DNA from: Acetilactobacillus jinshanensis
Lineage (GTDB): Bacteria > Bacillota > Bacilli > Lactobacillales > Lactobacillaceae
Length of the DNA stretch: 64,000 bases
Direction of reading: 5' to 3'
Assembly: GCF_004359375.1 (NCBI RefSeq)
Contig: NZ_CP034726.1
Location: 682,001 to 746,000 of the forward strand
The stretch's first letter is position 1, and each line of letters starts with the position of its first letter. The notes below the pieces were generated by a model. The model did no database searches. It saw only the letters and a list, made by a program, of their open reading frames with translations, and was not told the origin of the DNA. Shown one piece after another: positions 3,652 through 57,772 of the stretch. The position numbers and the translations under genes are program-made.

Positions 3652-5442
3652 TTACTTTAACGAACTAGAGGTTAAGCTTAACTTACCCCACATGTTGTTA
3701 TCACCAGGGTTGACACTGTAGCCTTTGACACGGCTATTAACAGGAGTCCAGCTTAAGCTGAAGAATTCAGGAGTGTAAACAGCTTCTTTGTTCATGTACT
3801 TCTGCCACTTTTCGAAGACTTTCTTACGGTGAGCCTTGTTGAATGACTTCTTGTCATTCATTTCGTTAAGTAGCTTCGTGTTTTCTTTAGTGCTTAAACG
3901 AGACATGTTGAAGTTAGCGTCGGTACCGTATTCACCAGTAGGTGTTGGATCAGCGGTCGTGGTGAAGCCTAATTCGTAGACATCAACCTTGTTCTGCTTA
4001 GGCTTGAGTAACATGGAAGCTAAGCTGTTCAATTCTTGTGGACGGCCATTAACGAACTTAACATCTAAGCCTAACTTATGCCACTGTTGTACGTAGTAGT
4101 GATCTTCGGCACTGCTTGCGGCATCGTTCTGTGGGCAACCAAAGTTAATTACTAACTTCTTGCCGTTAGGCTGAGATAACCATTTACTGCCATTACGCTT
4201 CTTGTAGCCAGCGTTCTTTAATAACGTCTTAGCTTTCTTGAAGTTGTATGGAAAGCCTGGTACCTGGCTATAAGATGAATGGTATTCTTTGTTTGCCGGT
4301 GGGATTAAGGTATTAGCACGGTAACTTAAGCCAAAGCCGAACTTCTTAGCGACTTCGTTTAAGTTCAAAGCATACATCATAGCTCGACGTAAGCTACGGT
4401 TATTCATCTTGTTATCTTTCTGCATTACACTAGCACCGGCTTTATCCTGATAACCAACGTGGAAGCCCATGAAGTCATAGGATAATGCAGGACCACCAAC
4501 AACGTGGTAATCCTTTAAGTGTTTAACGTTTGGATACTGAGTAGAGGAAGGACCGTTAGCCCAGTCATACTTCTTAGACTTTAAAGCAGCGGTAACGTTG
4601 CTTGGGTTAACAACTTGGATACTGATGTGTTTGATCTTTGGCTTAGCACCCCAGTAATACTTGTTAGGTACCCAGCTGGTGGATTCACCATGAACTTCTT
4701 TCTTTAACTTGTAAGGACCAACGAAGACTGGATGATTACGAACCTGAGTCGATGATGCTAACTTATTGATCGGTACGTTCTTCAAATACTCGTATGGTTC
4801 AACACCGGCCCACATGAAGCTGTTACCGTTATACTTTAATGCAGGAACTAAACGATGGAAGTGAAGAACGGCTTTTCGACCTTTAGGACCATCTGGGAAG
4901 GTAATTCCAGAAATGGTCTTAGCTTTACCGGCATGGTATGCAGCCATTCCTTTAATATCGTTCATGTCAGTGGTGTATTGCTGAGAATTACTGTTCTTGT
5001 TACCCATCATTTCGTATGGATATTCAACATCTTTAGCAGTAACCTTCATACCGTTAGACCACTTAGCGTTCTTACGTAAGGTAACGGTTGCGGTCTTGTT
5101 CTTCTTGCTTAACTTTAAGTTAGCTAACCCACCGTTAACGATCTTGTAATTCTTGTTCTGGTTGAACATGGCGCCACCGCCACCAGGAGCAAAGACATCT
5201 TGGTCTTCACCCATGGTCTGTAAGGTTGGTGAAGAAACACCGGTAAATGGTGAGCTAGCAACTTCAGCAACCTTTAAAGTACTGTGTTCATCGGCAGACT
5301 TAGAAGTCTTGCCAGGTGCTGTGTAGGTTTCAGATAAATGGGCATGTTTGTTAGTACCGTTAGCATTATTAGAACAGGCAGCTAATCCTAACATTGACAT
5401 TAGGACAACGCCTAAACCGAATAATTTCTTATATCGATTCAT
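3652..5442 (-). CDS. Oligopeptide ABC transporter substrate-binding lipoprotein (OppA family), copy 1
   Basis: 596 aa, typical for OppA/DppA solute-binding proteins. Lipoprotein signal: MNRYKKLFGLGVVLMSMLGLAACSNN, lipobox LAAC with the acylated Cys at about residue 23. Family blocks include AKWSNGMKVTAKDVEYPYEMM, FVGPYKL with WVPNKYYWG, and RRAMMYALNLNEVAKKFG. It should capture extracellular peptides for uptake. It is a close paralogue of the protein at 11012-12805. Neither copy has oppB, C, D or F nearby, so both are orphan binding proteins that would need a permease encoded elsewhere, or could act as peptide sensors. Start: ATG behind AAGGAGATATAATTACG. Upstream, on the same strand, lie a 39-aa peptide gene and a terminator. 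Confidence 0.9.
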   Translation of the reverse strand: MNRYKKLFGLGVVLMSMLGLAACSNNANGTNKHAHLSETYTAPGKTSKSADEHSTLKVAEVASSPFTGVSSPTLQTMGEDQDVFAPGGGGAMFNQNKNYKIVNGGLANLKLSKKNKTATVTLRKNAKWSNGMKVTAKDVEYPYEMMGNKNSNSQQYTTDMNDIKGMAAYHAGKAKTISGITFPDGPKGRKAVLHFHRLVPALKYNGNSFMWAGVEPYEYLKNVPINKLASSTQVRNHPVFVGPYKLKKEVHGESTSWVPNKYYWGAKPKIKHISIQVVNPSNVTAALKSKKYDWANGPSSTQYPNVKHLKDYHVVGGPALSYDFMGFHVGYQDKAGASVMQKDNKMNNRSLRRAMMYALNLNEVAKKFGFGLSYRANTLIPPANKEYHSSYSQVPGFPYNFKKAKTLLKNAGYKKRNGSKWLSQPNGKKLVINFGCPQNDAASSAEDHYYVQQWHKLGLDVKFVNGRPQELNSLASMLLKPKQNKVDVYELGFTTTADPTPTGEYGTDANFNMSRLSTKENTKLLNEMNDKKSFNKAHRKKVFEKWQKYMNKEAVYTPEFFSLSWTPVNSRVKGYSVNPGDNNMWGKLSLTSSSLK

Positions 5443-5559
5443 CGTAATTATATCTCCTTAACTTAGAAATTCATTCATTCAACATCATCAAACCTGTGAT
5501 TAAAAATAAATTCTTTAAGAGTGATCTATAATCGTCAGCCCTTTCTAAAGGAAGGTATT

Positions 5560-5600
5560 AAAAAATCCTCATGGCTAGAAAACCTAAACCATGAGGATTA
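5560..5600 (-). terminator. Terminator C of peptide cassette copy 1
   Basis: RNA AATCCTCATGG pairs with CCATGAGGATT and is followed by TTTTTT. The loop (GTTTAGGTTTTC) can pair with the loop of hairpin B (AAAATCTAAAC) over about 11 positions including one G-U. It separates the peptide gene from oppA. Confidence 0.85.
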
Positions 5601-5648
5601 AAATTACAGATCCAAAATTTAAAAACGATGAAAATTCTAAGTCAGGAT

Positions 5649-5688
5649 CATATCCACACAGTTTAGATTTTACCCCTGTGTGGATATG
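5649..5688 (-). other. Hairpin B of peptide cassette copy 1
   Basis: RNA CATATCCACACAG and CTGTGTGGATATG form a perfect 13-bp stem around the loop GGGTAAAATCTAAA. The loop and lower stem are conserved in copy 2 (10794-10821). The loop is complementary to the loop of terminator C, so a kissing interaction is possible. No T run follows, so it is not itself a terminator. Confidence 0.75.
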
Positions 5689-5712
5689 AATTACTTGAAA
5701 CAACTCAAACAA

Positions 5713-5801
5713 CTCAGATTATTCACACAGTCATGCAATAATTAAAATCACAATCATAATCGCAATAATAATTAAAATCGCAATGACTGCAATAATCTGA
5801 G
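5713..5801 (-). other. Hairpin A of peptide cassette copy 1 (reaches into the peptide ORF)
   Basis: RNA CTCAGATTATTGCAGTCAT (5801-5783) pairs with ATGACTGTGTGAATAATCTGAG (5734-5713), giving 11 bp, a 3-nt GTG bulge and 8 bp with one G-U. The 5' arm starts in the middle of the peptide ORF and the 3' arm runs past its stop, so the hydrophobic half of the ORF is held in the apical part. Copy 2 keeps the same fold with a compensatory change. Confidence 0.7.
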
Positions 5802-5850
5802 ATTGCATCCATAGCTTATTCAGATGTGCTGCCAAACAAGCTCGTTGCAT
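5731..5850 (-). CDS. 39-aa hydrophobic peptide, cassette copy 1
   Basis: Short ORF: MQRACLAAHLNK, then LWMQSQIIAVIAI, then an Ile-rich stretch ending IILIIA-like. It has a polar N-terminal third (about 16 residues) and one 22-residue transmembrane-like segment. Two other ORFs in the window share the pattern MQ-x(3-4)-LNK-x(3)-QSQII-x-VI (10634-10753 and 39426-39542). Start: ATG behind GAAAGAAGGTAAGCTTG, a leader conserved in copy 2. Candidate roles are type I toxin, leader peptide for the downstream oppA, or secreted signal. The sequence does not decide between them. Confidence 0.72.
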   Translation of the reverse strand: MQRACLAAHLNKLWMQSQIIAVIAILIIIAIMIVILIIA

Positions 5851-10592: not shown

Positions 10593-10633
10593 GATAACCG
10601 TAAAGTTAAGTATATCGAAAGAAGGTCAGTCTG

Positions 10634-10753
10634 ATGCAACAGACTTGTTCGGAAATGCTGAATAAGTTTAGTCGACAATCACAGATTATTACAGTCATTG
10701 CGATTATTATTATTGCGATTATTGCGATTTTAATTATCACTTTGACTGTGTGA
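10634..10753 (+). CDS. 39-aa hydrophobic peptide, cassette copy 2
   Basis: Reads MQQTCSEMLNKFSRQSQIIT, then an Ile/Ala-rich membrane-like stretch ending in TLTV. Homologous to the peptide at 5731-5850: MQ, a Cys at position 5, LNK and QSQII are shared. Start: ATG behind GAAAGAAGGTCAGTCTG. The hydrophobic half is built from repeats of GCGATTATT-like codons. It is followed by hairpins A and B, terminator C and an oppA paralogue, as in copy 1. Function unknown; see findings. Confidence 0.75.
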   Translation: MQQTCSEMLNKFSRQSQIITVIAIIIIAIIAILIITLTV

Positions 10754-10763
10754 ATAATTTGTG
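10680..10763 (+). other. Hairpin A of peptide cassette copy 2
   Basis: CACAGATTATTACAGTC (10680-10696) pairs with GACTGTGTGAATAATTTGTG (10744-10763): 6 bp, GTG bulge, 6 bp, G-U, 4 bp. Relative to copy 1 the second pair changes from U-A to A-U on both arms, a compensatory substitution. Confidence 0.7.
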
Positions 10764-10793
10764 GCTGTTGTTTTGGTTGCATCGGAAAATGTT

Positions 10794-10821
10794 CACACAG
10801 GGGCAAAATCTAAACTGTGTG
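10794..10821 (+). other. Hairpin B of peptide cassette copy 2
   Basis: CACACAG and CTGTGTG enclose GGGCAAAATCTAAA. Loop AAATCTAAAC is a perfect 10-nt complement of GTTTAGATTT in the loop of terminator C. The stem is shorter than in copy 1 but the loop sequence is nearly identical. Confidence 0.7.
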
Positions 10822-10862
10822 GATATGATCTGGAACGTTAATTTTGAATTTCATTAAAAATG

Positions 10863-10900
10863 GTCCTCACGGTTTAGATTTCAAATCGTGAGGATTTTTT
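10863..10900 (+). terminator. Terminator C of peptide cassette copy 2
   Basis: TCCTCACG and CGTGAGGA stem, loop with GTTTAGATTTC, then TTTTTT. Lies between the peptide and oppA. Confidence 0.87.
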
Positions 10901-10934
10901 CATGCCTCCTTTCTATTTCTAGGAAGGTGATTAG

Positions 10935-11011: not shown

Positions 11012-12805
11012 ATGAATCGATATAAAAAGATGTTAGCAATGGGCGTTGTCCTATTATCAATGGCAGGCTTAGCTGCTTGTTCCAATAGTGCAAACGGAAC
11101 TAACAAACACGTTCATTTATCTGAAACCGCGAATTTAAGTAAAAAGCCAACCAAGGCCGGTGATAAAAGTGGCCTGAACGTTGCCGAAGTTAGTGATTCA
11201 CCGTTCTCAGGAATTACTTCGCCTGAATTAATGGATAATGGTGAAGATCTCGATATGTTCGCCCCCGGTGGTAACGATAATATGTTCAACCAGAACAATC
11301 ATTATGAAGTTACCAAGGGCGGCCTAGCTAACTTAAAGTTAAACAAGAAGAACAACACCGCTACTATCACTTTACGTAAAAACGCTAAATGGTCAAACGG
11401 TATGAAGGTCACCGCTAAAGATGTTGAATATCCATACGAAGTCATCGCCAATAAGGACAGTAAGTCGCAGTCTTACAGTGATGTTTTAAACGACATTAAA
11501 GGCTTGTCAGCTTACCATAACGGTAAAGCTAAGACCATTTCCGGAATCACCTTCCCAGATGGTCCTAAGGGCCGCAAGACCGTAATTCATTACAATCACC
11601 TAACTCCAGGCATGAAGTACAACGGTAATGACTACATGAACGGTACCGTTGAACCATACGAATATCTAAAGAACGTGCCAATCAGCAAGTTAGCTTCTTC
11701 ACCACAGGTCCGTAAGCACCCACTCTTCGTTGGCCCTTACAAGATGAGTAAAGAAGTTGATGGTGAATCAACCAGCTGGGTACCCAATAAGTATTACTGG
11801 GGCAAGAAACCAAATATCAAACGAGTCCATATCCAAGTCGTTTCGACCAGTAACTTTGCCGAAGCCATGAAGACCAAGAAGTATGATTTTGCTAGTGGTA
11901 CCTATGGTGCTTTCTCAGACTTCCCTCACGTCAAGAATTTAAAGGACTACACCACCGTTGGTAAACCATTCTTAGCCTATGGTAACTACGGCTTTAACGT
12001 TGGTTATCAGAATAAGAAAGGCAATACCGTTGAATACAAGCACGGTAAGATGAGCAACCCTAGCTTACGTCGTGCCATGATGTACGCACTTAACTTGAAC
12101 ATGGTCTACAAGAAATTTGGCTACGGTTTAAAGTACCGTGCTAATACCTTAGTTCCACCGATTTATGGTAAATACCATGCTTCTTATAAGTCTCAGCCAG
12201 GCTTCCCTTACAACATGAAGAAAGCTAGACAGTTACTTAAGAATGCTGGCTATAAGAAGCGTCATGGCAGCAAGTGGTTATCTCAACCCAACGGTAAACC
12301 GTTAACGATTCACTTAGGTGCCATGTCAGGTAGTTCCGTTGGTAACGCTCAATCTGAATATATGCTACAGCAATGGCGTAAGTTGGGCTTAAACGCTAAA
12401 TACACTAATGGCAAGCCAATGGAAATGAATAGTTACTACGCTTACCTATCCAAGCCGAAACAGAAAGCCATGGATGTCTTCGAATCCGCATTCGAAATCA
12501 ATGCTGATCCATCCGAAGGTGGCATGTACGGACCAGGTGCTGCTGAAAACTATTCTCACTTCGCATCTAAAGAAAACAACAAGCTACTGACCGAAATGGA
12601 CAGCAAGAAAGCCTTTAACCTTAAGTACCGTGTCAAGGTATTTAAGAAGTGGCAGAAGTACATGAATAAAGAAGCCGCAGTCGTTCCTGATGATTATATG
12701 ACCATCTGGACACCAGTTAATCACCGTGTCACTGGTTTCAACTATTCACCAGGTGCTAATCAATTCTGGAGTAACTTGGGCTTAAACGCCACAAGCGAAA
12801 AATAA
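11012..12805 (+). CDS. Oligopeptide ABC transporter substrate-binding lipoprotein (OppA family), copy 2
   Basis: 597 aa paralogue of the protein at 3652-5442. Lipoprotein signal MNRYKKMLAMGVVLLSMAG followed by LAACSNSANGTNKH; AKWSNGMKVTAKDVEYPYEV, LFVGPYKMSKEVDGESTSW, PNKYYWGKKPNIKR and RRAMMYALNLN are shared. Both proteins begin nearly identically and differ more in the ligand-binding core, as expected for paralogues with different peptide preference. No permease or ATPase genes are adjacent. The next genes, PepX and an S9 peptidase on the same strand, would break down imported peptides. Start: ATG behind GGAGTG. Preceded by the peptide cassette. Confidence 0.92.
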   Translation: MNRYKKMLAMGVVLLSMAGLAACSNSANGTNKHVHLSETANLSKKPTKAGDKSGLNVAEVSDSPFSGITSPELMDNGEDLDMFAPGGNDNMFNQNNHYEVTKGGLANLKLNKKNNTATITLRKNAKWSNGMKVTAKDVEYPYEVIANKDSKSQSYSDVLNDIKGLSAYHNGKAKTISGITFPDGPKGRKTVIHYNHLTPGMKYNGNDYMNGTVEPYEYLKNVPISKLASSPQVRKHPLFVGPYKMSKEVDGESTSWVPNKYYWGKKPNIKRVHIQVVSTSNFAEAMKTKKYDFASGTYGAFSDFPHVKNLKDYTTVGKPFLAYGNYGFNVGYQNKKGNTVEYKHGKMSNPSLRRAMMYALNLNMVYKKFGYGLKYRANTLVPPIYGKYHASYKSQPGFPYNMKKARQLLKNAGYKKRHGSKWLSQPNGKPLTIHLGAMSGSSVGNAQSEYMLQQWRKLGLNAKYTNGKPMEMNSYYAYLSKPKQKAMDVFESAFEINADPSEGGMYGPGAAENYSHFASKENNKLLTEMDSKKAFNLKYRVKVFKKWQKYMNKEAAVVPDDYMTIWTPVNHRVTGFNYSPGANQFWSNLGLNATSEK

Positions 12806-47900: not shown

Positions 47901-47928
47901 ATTTCTAACTTAGATTCGGTTCCATGAT

Positions 47929-48098
47929 TCAAAGCTCTCCGTGAAAACTGATTCACGACAGTCCGTAATCTATTGAATTACGTCCCGGTACACCAATAAC
48001 TGTTATTATCAGTACCTCGGCGACCTCCCCTTTCGATCAACGTCTACACAGTAACAGCTGTTCGATTGATCTAATTATGTCGGTCGCAACCTCTTCGA
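47929..48098 (-). promoter_or_regulatory. Lysine riboswitch (L box) aptamer controlling lysP
   Basis: Same motif order as the lysA copy: TCGAAGAGGTTGCGACC, AAAGGGGAGGTCGCCGAGG and GGAGAGCTTTGAA on the minus strand. The P1 strands (TCGAAG and CTTTGA) are identical in both copies while the peripheral helices differ. The downstream permease fits known lysine-riboswitch regulons. Confidence 0.93.
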
Positions 48099-48170
48099 TT
48101 TAATTTACAATTATAATAATACACCATTTTTCAAATATATCAATATATTTGTAAATAGAATATAATATAA

Positions 48171-50369: not shown

Positions 50370-51329
50370 TTAGCTTTCGATTTCTTTAGCATCCTGTTTG
50401 GTAGTGCGGTGATGGAACCATTCCAAAATGTATACAGATAAGATGACTAAGATCGCACCTAAAATTTCGACCCAGTTAAAACTGGTGTGGAAAAAGATGA
50501 TACTGATGACGAAGGTTGCAACTGGTTCAATGGCATCAACGATGCTGCTGACTTGACTGGAGGCAAAGCGCAAACTATATAGCATACAAGAGAATGCAAT
50601 AATGGTACCAATGATGATGACACCGGTAACCCCTAAGATCAACGGAACGGTAATCTTCGGAACGTGCGTCCAGACTGGTGAATAAAGGTTAGAAAAGATA
50701 CTGGTAATTAACGTACCCCAGCCCAGGATAACGATCGGTGAATTATCCCTCATTAACGGTTTTGGTTCTGCATAGTAAACACCGGCGGAAACGGCAGATA
50801 ACAGACCGAAGATAATTGAAATCATCGGGATTGATAATTGACCAATGTTACCTTTAGTCACGGCTAGAAAAACCCCAACCAACGCTACCAAGAAAGCAAC
50901 TAGATCACCCTTTAACGGCTTCTGACGCTTAAAGACAAAGGCGTATAAAGCAATGAACATTGGTGCCAAGTATTGTAAGATGGTGGCCATAGCGGCGTTA
51001 CCTGATTGAATACAGATGTAGAACGTCGACATGTTCATCCCGATCCCGAAGATACTGTAAAGCAGTAACCGCTTGATATTTTTCTTCTTAAGCGGATCGA
51101 AGATGTGCTTACCAACTTGGCAAAAGCCAATTAGTAATAATAAGACTCCAGCAAACAGAGTTCGAAACGACATGAACCATTGCGTAGAAACCGCTTCGTT
51201 CTGAGAAACGAATTGCATTAAGTTACCTGAAATCCCCCAGAGACACGATGCGGTCGCTGACCAAAAGATCCCTTTTTCAACGTCACGCCTTACGATGTGC
51301 GTGTTCAATTGAGTTTTTTGTTGATCCAT
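50370..51329 (-). CDS. EamA-family DMT transporter
   Basis: 319 aa, ten membrane segments in two EamA repeats (WSATASCLWGISGNLMQFVS and ISIIFGLLSAVSAGVYYAEP, then LRFASSQVSSIVDAIEPVAT). Probably exports a metabolite or drug; substrate unknown. Start at 51329 (ATG), GGAGTG 10 bases upstream; an in-frame TTG at 51338 is too near to it. A small-peptide leader and a terminator lie directly upstream. Confidence 0.88.
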   Translation of the reverse strand: MDQQKTQLNTHIVRRDVEKGIFWSATASCLWGISGNLMQFVSQNEAVSTQWFMSFRTLFAGVLLLLIGFCQVGKHIFDPLKKKNIKRLLLYSIFGIGMNMSTFYICIQSGNAAMATILQYLAPMFIALYAFVFKRQKPLKGDLVAFLVALVGVFLAVTKGNIGQLSIPMISIIFGLLSAVSAGVYYAEPKPLMRDNSPIVILGWGTLITSIFSNLYSPVWTHVPKITVPLILGVTGVIIIGTIIAFSCMLYSLRFASSQVSSIVDAIEPVATFVISIIFFHTSFNWVEILGAILVILSVYILEWFHHRTTKQDAKEIES

Positions 51330-51373
51330 AAAAACCAATCACTCCATCTATTTAACAAATCATCAAAGTAAAC

Positions 51374-51409
51374 TAAAAAGCTGCCGATTTTCCAACCGTG
51401 CAGCTTTCG
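51374..51409 (-). terminator. Terminator between the leader peptide and the EamA gene
   Basis: AAAGCTGC and GCAGCTTT stem followed by TTTTAG, about 45 bases upstream of the EamA start. Confidence 0.7.
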
Positions 51410-51522
51410 TTTCATAATTAAGATCATGATTTACGATTTACACGGCCGAGTCTGCCCCCGCCTGTGCAAATCAACGATTTCTTGTAAAATCTCGTTTATT
51501 TAATTCTTCGCACAGACGCTAA
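51410..51522 (-). promoter_or_regulatory. Structured leader upstream of the EamA gene
   Basis: RNA GTCTGTGC (near 51511-51518) and GCACAGGC (near 51459-51466) form the base of a hairpin containing CGAGATTTTAC/GAAATCGT. GGCCGTG further on could pair with CACGG in the terminator loop. This looks like an attenuator or riboswitch-type region, but I cannot match it to a known class. Confidence 0.4.
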
Positions 51523-51612
51523 TTAATTTAAACCAGAATTTGAATTCACGTTATTATTCAAATTTCGATTCAAATTATTAGCATCCACTAACATTTCGAA
51601 TCTAAATAACAT
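51523..51612 (-). CDS. 29-aa leader peptide candidate upstream of the EamA gene
   Basis: MLFRFEMLVDANNLNRNLNN followed by NVNSNSGLN. GGGAG lies 9 bases upstream of the ATG. Asn-rich. It precedes a structured stretch and a terminator before the transporter gene, the layout of a leader-peptide attenuator. Confidence 0.4.
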   Translation of the reverse strand: MLFRFEMLVDANNLNRNLNNNVNSNSGLN

Positions 51613-52888: not shown

Positions 52889-53524
52889 TTAGCCGCTAAT
52901 TCTTTTGGAGATAATGTAGATGTCATTGATGATGTCTTTTGAAATCCCCTGATTAGCGATGATGGTTCCCATGTAGTCCAGCATGTTGTCCATCATCATG
53001 ATAATTCGACTCGATACAGAATTGACGACGTAGCTGATATCATCAAGATTAGAACTAATTGTATCAACTTGGTCGTCGACATGAACACCATAATGCGCTT
53101 TGATGATTGGATTAATAACCTGAGCATCGTCAGCCATGGCGATCAGACTGCTGTTGGTGAGTGATCTTGCGTCCTTTACGGAACTTTTCATGGCTGCGAC
53201 ACTGGCTTTGATATTTTGGATTATCTGAAGATTAAAATGCTTGGCATTATAAATATCAGTGGTGACGTTGATATCAGCCTTGATCATCTTGATATCGCTA
53301 ACCAGCATGTCGACCAAATCACGCCGGGTTTCATCAATACTCGAAGTCATATGGTCGAGATTGGCAATCATTTTGATGTCACTAGTATTAATCAGTTTAG
53401 AATTGGATGAATTAACCACATCCCTAATTGACGCAACATTCGCATTAATCACGTCCATTTTACGTGACATGTTACTCATCACATCAAACATATGAGGCAT
53501 CTTACTGACGTTAACACTTGACAT
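52889..53524 (-). CDS. Helical hypothetical protein, cargo gene of the fourth peptide locus
   Basis: 211 aa without signal peptide or Cys. Long amphipathic helices rich in Ile, Asp, Ser, Asn and Met: MSRKMDVINANVASIRDVVN, DMLVSDIKMIKADINVTTDI, MMDNMLDYMGTIIANQGISK. The pattern resembles a coiled-coil or four-helix bundle but I see no known domain. Start: ATG behind AGGTAATATCG. It sits downstream of a small peptide, hairpins and a terminator, in the position oppA takes in cassettes 1 and 2. Confidence 0.7.
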   Translation of the reverse strand: MSSVNVSKMPHMFDVMSNMSRKMDVINANVASIRDVVNSSNSKLINTSDIKMIANLDHMTSSIDETRRDLVDMLVSDIKMIKADINVTTDIYNAKHFNLQIIQNIKASVAAMKSSVKDARSLTNSSLIAMADDAQVINPIIKAHYGVHVDDQVDTISSNLDDISYVVNSVSSRIIMMMDNMLDYMGTIIANQGISKDIINDIYIISKRISG

Positions 53525-53604
53525 CGATATTACCTGGTTTCTAAAAACAGAGCATAAAACAACATAAGTATAAATTTAGAGAGACTTACAGACCTGAATG
53601 TATG

Positions 53605-53650
53605 AAAAAATCCTCACGATGATTTAACAATCGTGAGGATTTTATTTTTT
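53605..53650. terminator. Terminator C of the fourth peptide locus
   Basis: RNA ATCCTCACGAT and ATCGTGAGGAT with loop TTGTTAAA, then TTTTTT on the minus strand; T-rich on the plus side as well. The loop is complementary over 8 nt to the loop of hairpin B (TTTAACAA). Confidence 0.85.
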
Positions 53651-53673
53651 ATGACTTGAAATTCGATCAAACC

Positions 53674-53699
53674 CGCACGGTTGTTAAAATTACCGTGCG
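53674..53699 (-). other. Hairpin B of the fourth peptide locus
   Basis: CGCACGGT and ACCGTGCG enclose AATTTTAACA; TTTAACAA pairs with TTGTTAAA in terminator C. Different primary sequence from copies 1 and 2 but the same B-C pairing logic. Confidence 0.7.
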
Positions 53700-53709
53700 A
53701 CATTAGAAA

Positions 53710-53811
53710 TCAGCAGATCTTTAAACTATCCAATCGATTCACACGGCATGGATTAATGATATTAATCGCAATATTGATAATGCTGTGAATCGCTTGAATT
53801 AACTTAAACAT
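53710..53811 (-). CDS. 33-aa peptide, fourth peptide/RNA locus
   Basis: MFKLIQAIHSIINIAINIIN followed by PCRVNRLDSLKIC. Amphipathic Ile-rich first half, Cys-containing basic second half. Very strong ribosome site AAGGAGG 8 bases from the ATG. Hairpin A (53735-53792: CGATTCACAGCAT with ATGCCGTGTGAATCG) lies within it. Promoter TTGACA, 16 nt, TATCAT upstream. Sequence differs from the MQ...QSQII peptides, so it is related by layout rather than by clear homology. Confidence 0.55.
   Translation of the reverse strand: MFKLIQAIHSIINIAINIINPCRVNRLDSLKIC
53735..53792 (-). other. Hairpin A of the fourth peptide locus
   Basis: CGATTCACA (53792-53784) and TGTGAATCG (53743-53735) pair over 9 bp, extended by GCAT/ATGC with a CG bulge; it is wholly inside the peptide ORF. 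It shares TTCACA/TGTGAA with the stems of copies 1 and 2. Confidence 0.65.
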
Positions 53812-53846
53812 CTGACTGACCTCCTTTTTCATAACGTTCATCTACT

Positions 53847-53874
53847 ATGATAAACATTATCTGAATAATGTCAA
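53847..53874 (-). promoter_or_regulatory. Promoter of the fourth peptide locus
   Basis: TTGACA (53874-53869), a 16-nt spacer and TATCAT (53852-53847). Same spacing as cassettes 1 and 2. Confidence 0.65.
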
Positions 53875-53974: not shown

Positions 53975-56900
53975 TTATTTATTATCTTTTTGACGCTTCA
54001 AGGTTGGAATCATGAATGCCAAGCCCAATGCCAACAGAACAGCGGCGGCTAAGCTCATGTGTTCATGAGCTTCTCCGGTTTGCGGTAGCTTGTTACCGTT
54101 ATTGGCATTATTAGTTTGAGCATTCTTATGATTACTCTGATTAGTTTGTGCAACATTGCGATAACCTTTTTCAGCTTGTTCAAAATCATGATAACCCTGA
54201 ACATAGTAGCGGTCATTGCTCTGCATTGCATGACCAAGTCGGGCATCATTGATCCCGCCAAAGTATGCATGAACTTCAGAGGCACTCATGCTACGCATGT
54301 GATTAATACCAGCAACGTTCATCTGACCATATCTTGAGCCATATTGATGATAACCATAGCGATTACCGTACAGCTTATGATATTGTCCAGCAGACATACC
54401 AGTACCAGCATATTGTGGATAGCCGTGACGTCCGTAATGGCCATAGTGGTCATTGCCATTAACATTGTTAACGCCGTTAATTCCGTTGAGTCCTAACAAT
54501 CTCATTAATCGCTTCTTGGCTTGATGCATCTGTTTTGGAGTAGCATTACCATTCTTTAAGAAGTTAATGAGGCTTGGAACATCATTTGGGATCGTCACGT
54601 TAGTAATCGATTGAGTGGTGTAATGAGTAATACCACCATTCTTATTAATGGATTTCCCTTTAGAATAACGATGAGAAGCAGGTGCTCCTGATGTAGTGTG
54701 GGCTGCAACACTATTAGTTGTGTATGGTGCAATCGGATGACTTGCCGTTGTATTCTGAGTACGTTTCGAATCACTGCTCTGACCAGAACTCGGTTGTGCG
54801 CTCGAGCTTGGTTGAATATTCGGTAAGACCGCAATCGGCTGCGGCTGCTTATCGTTATTGAACGTCAGACCCTGCGTCTTCTGACCTGGGGCGACGTGAT
54901 AGCCCTGCGGAACCGTATCCGACGGGACATCGAACGTGGTCTGCTTAGGGTTATTCGGATCGTAACTGTACTTCTGCGGAGTAGAACCTGGAACGGGCTT
55001 GCCGTTAACCGTGTACTGAACGGTCTCACTGTCGGGGGCCACTGGCACGTTAGTCGTGGCCGTGCCCGTCTTATCAGGCGTGTAATTTACCGGTGTGGAA
55101 TCGCTGGCTAAGTGGTAACCCGCAGGTACGTCCTGCGCGTTCTTCTTAGTGACGTTCTGATCACTCGGCTTGGTCTGATCGAAGGTCTGCGGATCCTTAC
55201 CTTTCGTCTGACCGTTATACGTATAGATGACGTTCGACGTGTTCGGTGCCACATAAATAACAACTGTTTGTGGCACTCGTTTTCCATTTATAATTGTAGG
55301 TGCCTTTTCTGTATCTATTTCTTCAGTATTATCTGTAGCAGAAACATAATGATATCCCTTGGGAATACGATTAAAATCCGTTTTTACATCATGCTCAATA
55401 TTATTATAACTGCGATGTATATGATAAAATCTATCATTACTATTACCAATATCACTTTGATCTGAAACAGGCGGAGTTTCTGGAGTTATATTATTGCCAT
55501 TATTTTTATCAACATATTGTAAGATAATGTCACTTGGTTTAATACTCCATCCATCTGGTAAAATTTCTAAATTTATAGCTCCACCATATGCAACCCTGTC
55601 ACTTGACTTAAAGAACGGTTTATATCCATTAGGTATTCCTTCTGGATGATAACCAACTTCAACTGGAAATTCATCAATTTTATCATTAATACTCTTATAA
55701 TCACTAGACTGTCCTATAGGTCCATACTCATCACTCATTCCAGTTGTATAAGTTTGACCATTTTTAGTATATGAAGTCCCATAAAGGCCATAAGTTTTAT
55801 TCTTATTAGAGTATAAGACACCCCAACGTTCTCCTGGTTTACCTAAATTAAGTTCCTTATTACCAAAGTAATAATAAAATTTTGCAGGTGCTACCTTAGA
55901 TGTTTTAGCTGTAGCATTTTTATTCGTGACGTAAAAATTACCTCGCCGTTTATCTTTATTTGTATTTAGGCTAATATCACCAGGATGTTCCGTATAACCG
56001 TTTAGAACCCATGGCTTATAATAAGTATTCCCACCATCAGATTGATAATAGTAATCTGAATTATTTGGATTATATTGACTAACGCCATGCTTAGTAGAAC
56101 GTGTATCAGGTTTAGCGGATACATAGTCAATAGTCCAATTAGCACCAGGAATAGTAAATGTCATGACAGGATTTGACTTTATTTCCCCATTTGATAATTT
56201 TCTTACAGTATAATTGGCCGAAGGAAATGCATCACAATGTTTAGCTAAATAATCAAAGAAATCACTATCATTCTGAAATACATAAGCATTACCTGTATCT
56301 GTACTACTTGCTCCGTTAGGTGCCACATGACTAACATTAGTATTTGTAAGTAATCCATTTAGATTCCAGTCCTTAGACAAGGCTTTAAATGTAAATAGAG
56401 CATCAGAGTTATTAATGTCACTGTCGTTTAAATCACTGTCAAATAAATGGGGATCATTTTTAAACATAAAAGCAAAATTACGGACCTTACTGGTATCCCA
56501 ATTAGTTAGTGCTTTTATATTACTTAACTTAAAATCACTACGGAACATTTGTGGCATCCATAAAACACTGGATGTATCCCAATTACTTAATCCACTAATA
56601 TTAGTTAACGCTGTATCTTTATAAAACATAAGACTCATATTAGTAACATTATGCATACCCCAATTACCAATTGGTGTAACATTCGTAAGACTTGAGTCGT
56701 TAGAAAACATATTATTAGTGAACTGAACATTACTGGTATTCCAGTCGCTTAATCCACTAAGATCACTTAAATTTTTATCGTTATCAAACATGTAACTCAT
56801 ATTAGTAACATGACTAGTGTCCCAGGTACTCAAATCATTAGTGGTTGTAATACTTGGATCGTTTTCAAACATATGACTCATATCACTAGCATCACTAGTA

Positions 56901-57772
56901 TTAAGTCCAGTTACTTTTTGTAAATCTGAATAACCTTCAAACATCCGATGCATATCAGATAAATCACTAGTGTGAAAATGAGGTCCAAAATCAACTTCTG
57001 TTACTACTTTTTGTACATCACCTGGTCTACTATATGTAGATCTGTGGTTGTCCTTGATATTATTTAGAATATCATACATGAATCTTTGTCCATTAGTAAG
57101 ATTAGGATCAGAGTTTTGTAATTGTGAGGAATTCCATTGGCCCTTATCAAAACGTAATGTACTACCGTCCCAATCGTAATAAATGTCATCAAAATCAGTA
57201 TCAGTTGAGGGGGCTGTGTAATCCGAATTAGTATTTGTGTTATTGGTACTACCTAACTTCATCACACCCAACTTCATCAGAGCATGATGTGCCACTTGAT
57301 TAGCACCACTAATTTGCGACTTAAAACCGTCACCACTTGATTCTCGATTGTCACGAAGATTATTGGTACTTTCACCATCATTACTTTGGGTAGTCTTCGC
57401 CTGTAATGCAGAGTTTACTACACTATTAGCGTTACTTGTAATCTGCTTAAAAGAACTGTTCGATGTATTATTATTTATACTCTCATTAAGATTATTTTGA
57501 GCAACGTTAGTCTGTGCTGCACTTACCAAATGGGCATGCATATGAGAGGCATCGCTCATAACATCTCCAGATGTAGATTGAGGATTCTGTTGTGCGTTTG
57601 CACTAGTATTATTAGGGTTGGTTTGAGCATGTGCAATCTTGCCCTTGTGAGCAACCGACGCACCACCTAACGTAGCTAATAGCGCTAATGAAACAACGAC
57701 CCATCGCTTTCTAATTTTATGTAATACTTTTTTGTCATTAGTTTTTCTATATTGACGTTTATTGTATCCCAA
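53975..57772 (-). CDS. LPQTG-anchored surface protein with BspA/DUF285 repeats
   Basis: 1265 aa. Long signal peptide (RKRWVVVSLALLATLGGASV, cleavage near AHA), a Ser/Asn-rich segment, then from about residue 240 to 470 DUF285/BspA-type repeats of about 25 residues such as MSHMFENDPSITTTNDLSTW and DTSHVTNMSYMFDNDKNLSD. Next a beta-rich region, then two roughly 80-residue repeats (QDVPAGYHLASDSTPVNYTP; VPQGYHVAPGQKTQG), a Gly/Tyr-rich tail (HYGRHGYPQYAGTG) and LPQTGEAHEH with a membrane anchor and basic tail. Sortase-linked, probably adhesive. The repeat part (about 54.8-55.25 kb) is visibly richer in GC than the rest. Start: TTG behind GGAGGACATCG. Confidence 0.9.
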   Translation of the reverse strand: MGYNKRQYRKTNDKKVLHKIRKRWVVVSLALLATLGGASVAHKGKIAHAQTNPNNTSANAQQNPQSTSGDVMSDASHMHAHLVSAAQTNVAQNNLNESINNNTSNSSFKQITSNANSVVNSALQAKTTQSNDGESTNNLRDNRESSGDGFKSQISGANQVAHHALMKLGVMKLGSTNNTNTNSDYTAPSTDTDFDDIYYDWDGSTLRFDKGQWNSSQLQNSDPNLTNGQRFMYDILNNIKDNHRSTYSRPGDVQKVVTEVDFGPHFHTSDLSDMHRMFEGYSDLQKVTGLNTSDASDMSHMFENDPSITTTNDLSTWDTSHVTNMSYMFDNDKNLSDLSGLSDWNTSNVQFTNNMFSNDSSLTNVTPIGNWGMHNVTNMSLMFYKDTALTNISGLSNWDTSSVLWMPQMFRSDFKLSNIKALTNWDTSKVRNFAFMFKNDPHLFDSDLNDSDINNSDALFTFKALSKDWNLNGLLTNTNVSHVAPNGASSTDTGNAYVFQNDSDFFDYLAKHCDAFPSANYTVRKLSNGEIKSNPVMTFTIPGANWTIDYVSAKPDTRSTKHGVSQYNPNNSDYYYQSDGGNTYYKPWVLNGYTEHPGDISLNTNKDKRRGNFYVTNKNATAKTSKVAPAKFYYYFGNKELNLGKPGERWGVLYSNKNKTYGLYGTSYTKNGQTYTTGMSDEYGPIGQSSDYKSINDKIDEFPVEVGYHPEGIPNGYKPFFKSSDRVAYGGAINLEILPDGWSIKPSDIILQYVDKNNGNNITPETPPVSDQSDIGNSNDRFYHIHRSYNNIEHDVKTDFNRIPKGYHYVSATDNTEEIDTEKAPTIINGKRVPQTVVIYVAPNTSNVIYTYNGQTKGKDPQTFDQTKPSDQNVTKKNAQDVPAGYHLASDSTPVNYTPDKTGTATTNVPVAPDSETVQYTVNGKPVPGSTPQKYSYDPNNPKQTTFDVPSDTVPQGYHVAPGQKTQGLTFNNDKQPQPIAVLPNIQPSSSAQPSSGQSSDSKRTQNTTASHPIAPYTTNSVAAHTTSGAPASHRYSKGKSINKNGGITHYTTQSITNVTIPNDVPSLINFLKNGNATPKQMHQAKKRLMRLLGLNGINGVNNVNGNDHYGHYGRHGYPQYAGTGMSAGQYHKLYGNRYGYHQYGSRYGQMNVAGINHMRSMSASEVHAYFGGINDARLGHAMQSNDRYYVQGYHDFEQAEKGYRNVAQTNQSNHKNAQTNNANNGNKLPQTGEAHEHMSLAAAVLLALGLAFMIPTLKRQKDNK

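Follow-up and report, generated by a model that had tools for sequence, protein, structure and literature searches.

What purpose is served by two neighbouring hairpins with complementary loops, lying between a short isoleucine-rich reading frame and a gene for a 211-aa protein, is the question raised by a locus, here called c4, in a 64,000-nucleotide stretch of the Acetilactobacillus jinshanensis genome (the window; NZ_CP034726.1, positions 682,001 to 746,000). RNA control of amino acids in Lactobacillales has mostly been credited to T-boxes (for histidine, PMC9413887). We are highly confident that c4 senses the supply of isoleucine as a ribosome-mediated leader-peptide attenuator of transcription; its design is of the his-operon type and is not a kissing-loop device, and we take its peptide to be the sensor, supplying the codons where the ribosome would stall, rather than a functional peptide. 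What we observe are five duplexes, covariation from cassette to cassette, enrichment of isoleucine, and agreement of leader, gene and T-box in the sister cassettes; the stalling of the ribosome, the readthrough and the direction in which control runs at c4 are proposed by analogy with experimentally studied attenuators such as Listeria Rli60 (PMC8079631).

Layout of the c4 leader

The whole cassette, one member (L012) of a 19-member family, reads on the minus strand, in the order promoter, Shine-Dalgarno sequence, 33-codon open reading frame containing hairpin A, hairpin B, terminator C and the 211-aa gene. The elements listed in a preliminary description of this DNA (TTGACA-16-TATCAT, AAGGAGG, a 33-aa Ile-rich frame with an internal hairpin, hairpin B and terminator C) are thus all present, and are located as follows.

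53847–53874, minus strand: promoter, TTGACA (53874-53869), 16 nt, TATCAT (53852-53847); consensus scan, 11/12 matches
53820–53826, minus strand: Shine-Dalgarno sequence AAGGAGG of the leader frame, read from the sequence
53710–53811, minus strand: leader open reading frame, 33 aa with 9 Ile, MFKLIQAIHSIINIAINIINPCRVNRLDSLKIC, by translation
53783–53800, minus strand: segment A5', from the A5:A3 duplex
53727–53749, minus strand: segment A3', partner of A5' or B5', from the A3:B5 duplex
53690–53706, minus strand: segment B5', partner of A3' or B3', from cognate versus permuted pairing and duplex energies
53668–53689, minus strand: segment B3' with loop, partner of B5' or, as antiterminator, C5', from the B3:C5 duplex and covariation
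53622–53644, minus strand: segment C5' with loop, partner of B3' or C3', from covariation and duplex energies
53600–53621, minus strand: segment C3' with U-run, the intrinsic terminator C, hairpin C followed by TTTTTT
52889–53524, minus strand: 211-aa gene, presumed to be regulated by c4

Seven of the nine isoleucine codons sit between A5' and A3', in the loop of A, or at the edge of that loop, and a 12-residue stretch of the leader holds seven isoleucines (p 4e-6). Hairpin B starts about 10 nt past the leader stop codon, and the intrinsic terminator (hairpin C, -20.2 kcal/mol, with six T) precedes the 211-aa gene. At permissive threshold Rfam returned nothing at this locus, T-boxes (RF00230) were found neither in the window nor in a permissive search of c4, and a similarity search against plasmid DNA gave no match. 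Directly upstream of c4 lies a gene for a 1265-aa LPXTG-anchored protein with DUF285 repeats (window 53975-57772, minus strand). Elsewhere the window carries two lysine riboswitches on the minus strand, at 1536-1714 before a 434-aa gene resembling diaminopimelate decarboxylase and at 47924-48103 before an amino-acid permease.

Alternative pairings and their conservation

The c4 leader consists of six segments forming five consecutive, mutually exclusive duplexes: A5:A3 (53800-53783 with 53744-53727, -18.0 kcal/mol), A3:B5 (53749-53729 with 53706-53690, -17.2 kcal/mol), B5:B3 (53701-53691 with 53682-53672, -16.2 kcal/mol), B3:C5 (22 nt, 53689-53668 with 53643-53622, -19.5 kcal/mol) and C5:C3 (53644-53629 with 53621-53606). 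When one side was shuffled 5000 times, which was done for A5:A3, A3:B5 and B3:C5, the native energy was matched by 9/5000 shuffles for A5:A3, by 8/5000 for A3:B5 and, with the C side shuffled, by 0/5000 for B3:C5. The 8-nt complementary loops reported earlier are indeed there, TTTAACAA in B (53688-53681) and TTGTTAAA in C (53630-53623), but they are only part of the 22-nt B3:C5 duplex, in which the B loop and 3' arm pair with the C 5' arm and loop, and the A3:B5 pairing had been missed.

Because B3:C5 uses the 3' arm of B and the 5' arm of C, it is incompatible with both hairpins, and the contact between the loops of two standing hairpins that had been envisaged does not hold; B3:C5 takes the place of B and C as an antiterminator helix. 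A kissing loop-loop pseudoknot of B and C, which would stabilise the RNA or sense something by itself, would draw on the existence and conservation of the 8-nt loop complementarity, but a 22-nt pairing through both arms cannot coexist with B and C, and the pseudoknot would account neither for A3:B5 nor for the match of leaders and amino acids in the sister cassettes, so that we regard it as very improbable.

A background of similar complementarities in the window had been named beforehand as what could undo the B–C claim, and the claim survives the scan. By ungapped upstream-complement score, cassettes 1 and 4 head the terminator-like hairpins of the window (36 and 33, the next scoring 23); by duplex energy among 120 window terminators (mean -10.9, sd 3.8), cassettes 2, 1 and 4 rank 2nd, 3rd and 6th, the three non-cassette entries above c4 forming weak hairpins (-10 to -12 kcal/mol). 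Within the window, a long upstream complement to the 5' arm of a terminator is therefore rare.

The claim that the B–C pairing is kept while the bases differ is borne out by comparison across 26 cassettes. Cognate energies were -520 for B3:C5 and -424 for A3:B5, against -341±18 and -315±15 after permutation of partners, with 0/20000 permutations as good in either case; with redundancy removed and only this genome considered, cognate pairing had z values of -8.3 and -5.8, respectively. In a 26-row alignment, which was fitted to B and C rather than to the alternative helix and includes three opposite-strand rows, the B and C stems are 91.8% paired, with two-sided compensatory changes at 20 of 24 pairs. 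The antiterminator helix is 91.5% paired in the same alignment, with two-sided changes at 11 of 12 pairs, these twelve having been picked after inspection of the columns, with poorly paired ones dropped; when all 16 columns are counted, pairing reaches 81% of cells, versus 61% in the next best register. Sliding the helix by 1-3 columns lowers pairing to 28-43%.

Cassettes of the same plan

The preliminary description counted c4 as the fourth locus with this RNA plan; the plan is common to the loci, but the number was too low. A structure-based search, as had been proposed there, used a covariance model built from B and C of seven cassettes (R1; the E-values of such home-made models are rough) and found 19 convincing cassettes in the 1.6-Mb genome, as well as similar ones in other genera of the family. 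The 19 are listed with the leader and the product of the downstream gene.

L010 (cassette 1), 5556–5850, minus strand: Ile-rich leader; peptide-binding protein (SBP_bac_5) oppA, 3652-5442
L007 (cassette 2), 10633–10904, plus strand: Ile-rich leader; oppA (SBP_bac_5), 11012-12805, then pepX and S9 peptidase
L020 (cassette 3), 51371–51612, minus strand: Asn-rich leader MLFRFEMLVDANNLNRNLNNNVNSNSGLN; EamA transporter, 50370-51338
L012 (c4): Ile leader; 211-aa protein
L017: Val/Leu leader; SBP_bac_5
L014: Arg leader; SBP_bac_5
L015: Arg leader; SBP_bac_5
L019: His leader; SBP_bac_5
L016: Asn leader; asparagine–tRNA ligase (above NCBIfam cut-off)
L021: Asp leader; GltP-like Glu/Asp symporter
L023: Arg leader; Arg-type ABC transporter
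L018: VVVVV leader; APC permease
L024: WWW leader; APC permease
L029: Tyr/Phe leader; MFS–chorismate mutase fusion
L008: Ala leader; aminotransferase
L011: leader without clear bias; D-2-hydroxyacid dehydrogenase
L013: Ile/Val/Leu leader; 102-aa protein without Pfam match
L009: Val leader; paralog of the 211-aa protein
L025: Val leader; paralog of the 211-aa protein

A single amino acid dominates a 12-residue stretch of most leaders (p ≤7e-4, without correction for having chosen the stretch), the bias being weak in L009 and L011, and in many sister cassettes the leader amino acid clearly suits the downstream gene. A further minus-strand region of the window (39330-38850) has small open reading frames behind a TTGACA-like promoter, one starting MLMNALSASSDEAASNKLAKN, and does not match R1.

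Four leaders adjoin one of the 26 T-box hits of the genome, three T-boxes lying directly after Arg leaders (L014/L107, L015/L109 and L023/L104) and one before the Tyr leader (L029/L115). Their specifier codons, the position of which was read by eye from Rfam alignments, are CGA, CGA, CGA and UAC, so that leader and T-box name the same amino acid in 4/4 cases, and at these four loci a leader-peptide attenuator and a T-box of the same specificity stand in series. CGA is favoured by the Arg leaders themselves as well (29/45 Arg codons in the 19 leaders), as is GTC for valine (25/61), the window genes using each at about 27%; the two codons were perhaps chosen as slow codons.

Among 398 sampled genomes of the family, 32 had a hit, and only this genome had many. 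The covariance model retrieved Ile, Val and Leu leaders in other genera (L037, L039, L044 and L038), and in further relatives (L122-L146) the DAHP synthase gene and aroE follow Tyr leaders, and aromatic leaders stand upstream of an aminotransferase gene, the names aroE and aminotransferase being read from N-terminal sequences; a Leu leader in a relative precedes a lactate/hydroxyisocaproate-type dehydrogenase. Hits L042 and L043, and hits without a leader in relatives, were dropped as plain terminators, and those around relatives' oppA were dropped as weak, downstream of genes and with no leader seen.

The putatively regulated gene

The gene downstream of c4 does encode a 211-aa protein, as described; that it is helical is a low-confidence prediction, a single-sequence AlphaFold model being all helix with a pLDDT of 48.7, which is not usable. 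The protein had no Pfam hit and only a marginal PHROGs match (E 0.024). In 301 family genomes its three good matches, the protein itself and two paralogs, all come from this genome, and one marginal match elsewhere (25% identity, E 3.2e-4) has stops inside, so that by sequence search the family seems essentially confined to this genome.

All three members (at L012, L009 and L025) stand behind Ile or Val leaders. The 354-aa paralog behind the Val-rich leader of L009 (L009:1697-2758, plus strand) contains 126 Ile (35.6%), 2 Val and 2 Leu, and it uses ATC and ATT equally often for isoleucine, which is not what simple AT drift would give. The paralog at L025 (L025:1634-2338, plus strand) is rich in valine (23.8%), and its likely Shine-Dalgarno sequence and ATG are out of frame with the homologous frame; this copy may have decayed. 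The idea that a product is poor in the amino acid sensed by its leader holds for L009 but fails for L025 and c4, and the isoleucine content of the 211-aa protein itself (14%) is unexpected in a gene that isoleucine shortage would turn on.

Relation to RF04312

The RF04312 'trpB motif' entered the literature as a strong riboswitch candidate, although its authors left room for a classic attenuator (PMC11109978). We examined 29 genomes of a neighbouring family, where each of the 14 hits that exceed the RF04312 cut-off has a Shine-Dalgarno sequence and a short open reading frame about 20 nt upstream; these frames end in W-Q-x-W and two residues, mostly RR, with one continuing beyond. Most weaker hits likewise have an upstream Shine-Dalgarno sequence and a short Trp frame, and two of them have a Tyr version (FYFSYYR) before an aroE-like gene; the leader frames of the hit loci (L065, L069-L097) end in WQxWRR (Trp) or FYFSYYR (Tyr). 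Among the genes that follow are trpB and one for an ABC substrate-binding protein (PF04392). From these sequences, RF04312 is probably a Trp leader-peptide attenuator rather than a riboswitch.

That c4 should itself be a riboswitch that binds a ligand, as has been proposed for RF04312, with a merely incidental reading frame, has a slimmer chance still than the loop-loop contact. The two share a two-hairpin terminator/antiterminator plan, and RF04312 has standing as a published candidate (PMC11109978), but B and C have no conserved binding core beyond their pairing, the leader codons track the regulated gene, and RF04312 has upstream Trp leader frames of its own. The 59-bit cut-off of RF04312 was reached nowhere in the window, c4 included, the whole genome gave no hit, and the best score among 14 loci searched, 39.3 bits for the relative L038, is below it. 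Least probable of all is a type I toxin-antitoxin (Fst/Lpt-like) locus with a hydrophobic peptide and a bidirectional terminator: the c4 peptide is short and hydrophobic and its terminator has U-runs on both strands, but the B–C core is kept in sister cassettes with hydrophilic leaders (Asn, Asp, Arg, His), the peptides match the amino acid of the downstream gene, and no credible convergent antisense promoter was found at c4, a search of the plus strand left of C (53450-53606) giving none.

Discussion

As an attenuator, c4 would work through the position of the ribosome on the leader. With ample Ile-tRNA, the ribosome would pass the isoleucine codons to the stop codon and cover A3'; B5':B3' would then form, C5' would be free for C3', and the terminator would halt transcription upstream of the 211-aa gene, giving an abundant short transcript of about 230 nt. 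With Ile-tRNA scarce, the ribosome would stall on the isoleucine codons in the A loop and block A5', whereupon A3' would take B5', B3' would take C5', no terminator would form, and RNA polymerase would read on. Masked-ribosome folds of c4, which are only partly informative, being at equilibrium, of fixed length and at two transcript lengths, contain the antiterminator when the ribosome sits on the isoleucine codons of A and lack it when the ribosome is at the last two codons. The antiterminator is present in the ribosome-free equilibrium fold too, and in the equilibrium fold with only B complete, B beats A3:B5 at every ribosome position. Equilibrium folds therefore do not separate the states cleanly, and the model leans on kinetic, co-transcriptional folding.

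The finding places classical leader-peptide attenuation at regulon scale in one small genome, with a shared core and swapped sensor codons, over the import of peptides and of single amino acids and one tRNA synthetase. The cassettes form a natural series for studying how sensitivity depends on the choice of codons, their position and the fold; an orphan Rfam candidate, RF04312, gains a concrete and testable reading; and the 211-aa gene family is pointed to as under isoleucine and valine control. We would go further only as speculation, and think it rather unlikely, in supposing that one attenuator core has become a re-programmable family (19 paralogous cassettes that keep the B–C switch while the leader is rewritten, with at least nine amino acids sensed and four cassettes beside a T-box of the same specificity) and that the 211-aa family under its control would be a buffer or sink for branched-chain amino acids. 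Our literature search, which covered papers outside subscription, found no report of the regulon; Eckert and Weinberg have reportedly published a set of novel leader-peptide candidates.

The his operon attenuator of enteric bacteria has six segments, A-F, in which A:B, C:D and E:F alternate with B:C and D:E. Like it, c4 has a leader peptide in which the sensed amino acid comes in runs, a chain of duplexes, and the last hairpin as terminator; unlike it, c4 occurs in a different phylum, shows no sequence relation, senses isoleucine rather than histidine, and has a core that is reused for many amino acids within one genome. RF04312 (PMC11109978) resembles c4 in its two hairpins, of which the second is a terminator and the first carries the antiterminator in its right shoulder, and in the leader frame upstream of the hits examined here, although c4 does not match its sequence family. 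Listeria Rli60 at ilv-leu (PMC8079631) and the Leu-rich ilv attenuator of S. aureus (PMC5794164), like c4, are found in Firmicutes and combine a branched-chain leader peptide with termination and antitermination; Rli60, however, has a four-region design in place of the six segments of c4, and both stand at a biosynthetic operon, whereas the cassettes described here precede peptide transporters and the 211-aa gene. His leader peptides have been found computationally in bacilli, Peptostreptococcaceae and Erysipelotrichaceae, the histidine genes of Lactobacillales being assigned T-boxes rather than leader peptides (PMC2965389, PMC9413887). Like those, c4 is a computationally found leader-peptide attenuator of a Gram-positive bacterium, but they serve a single amino acid, and the cassettes of this genome serve many.
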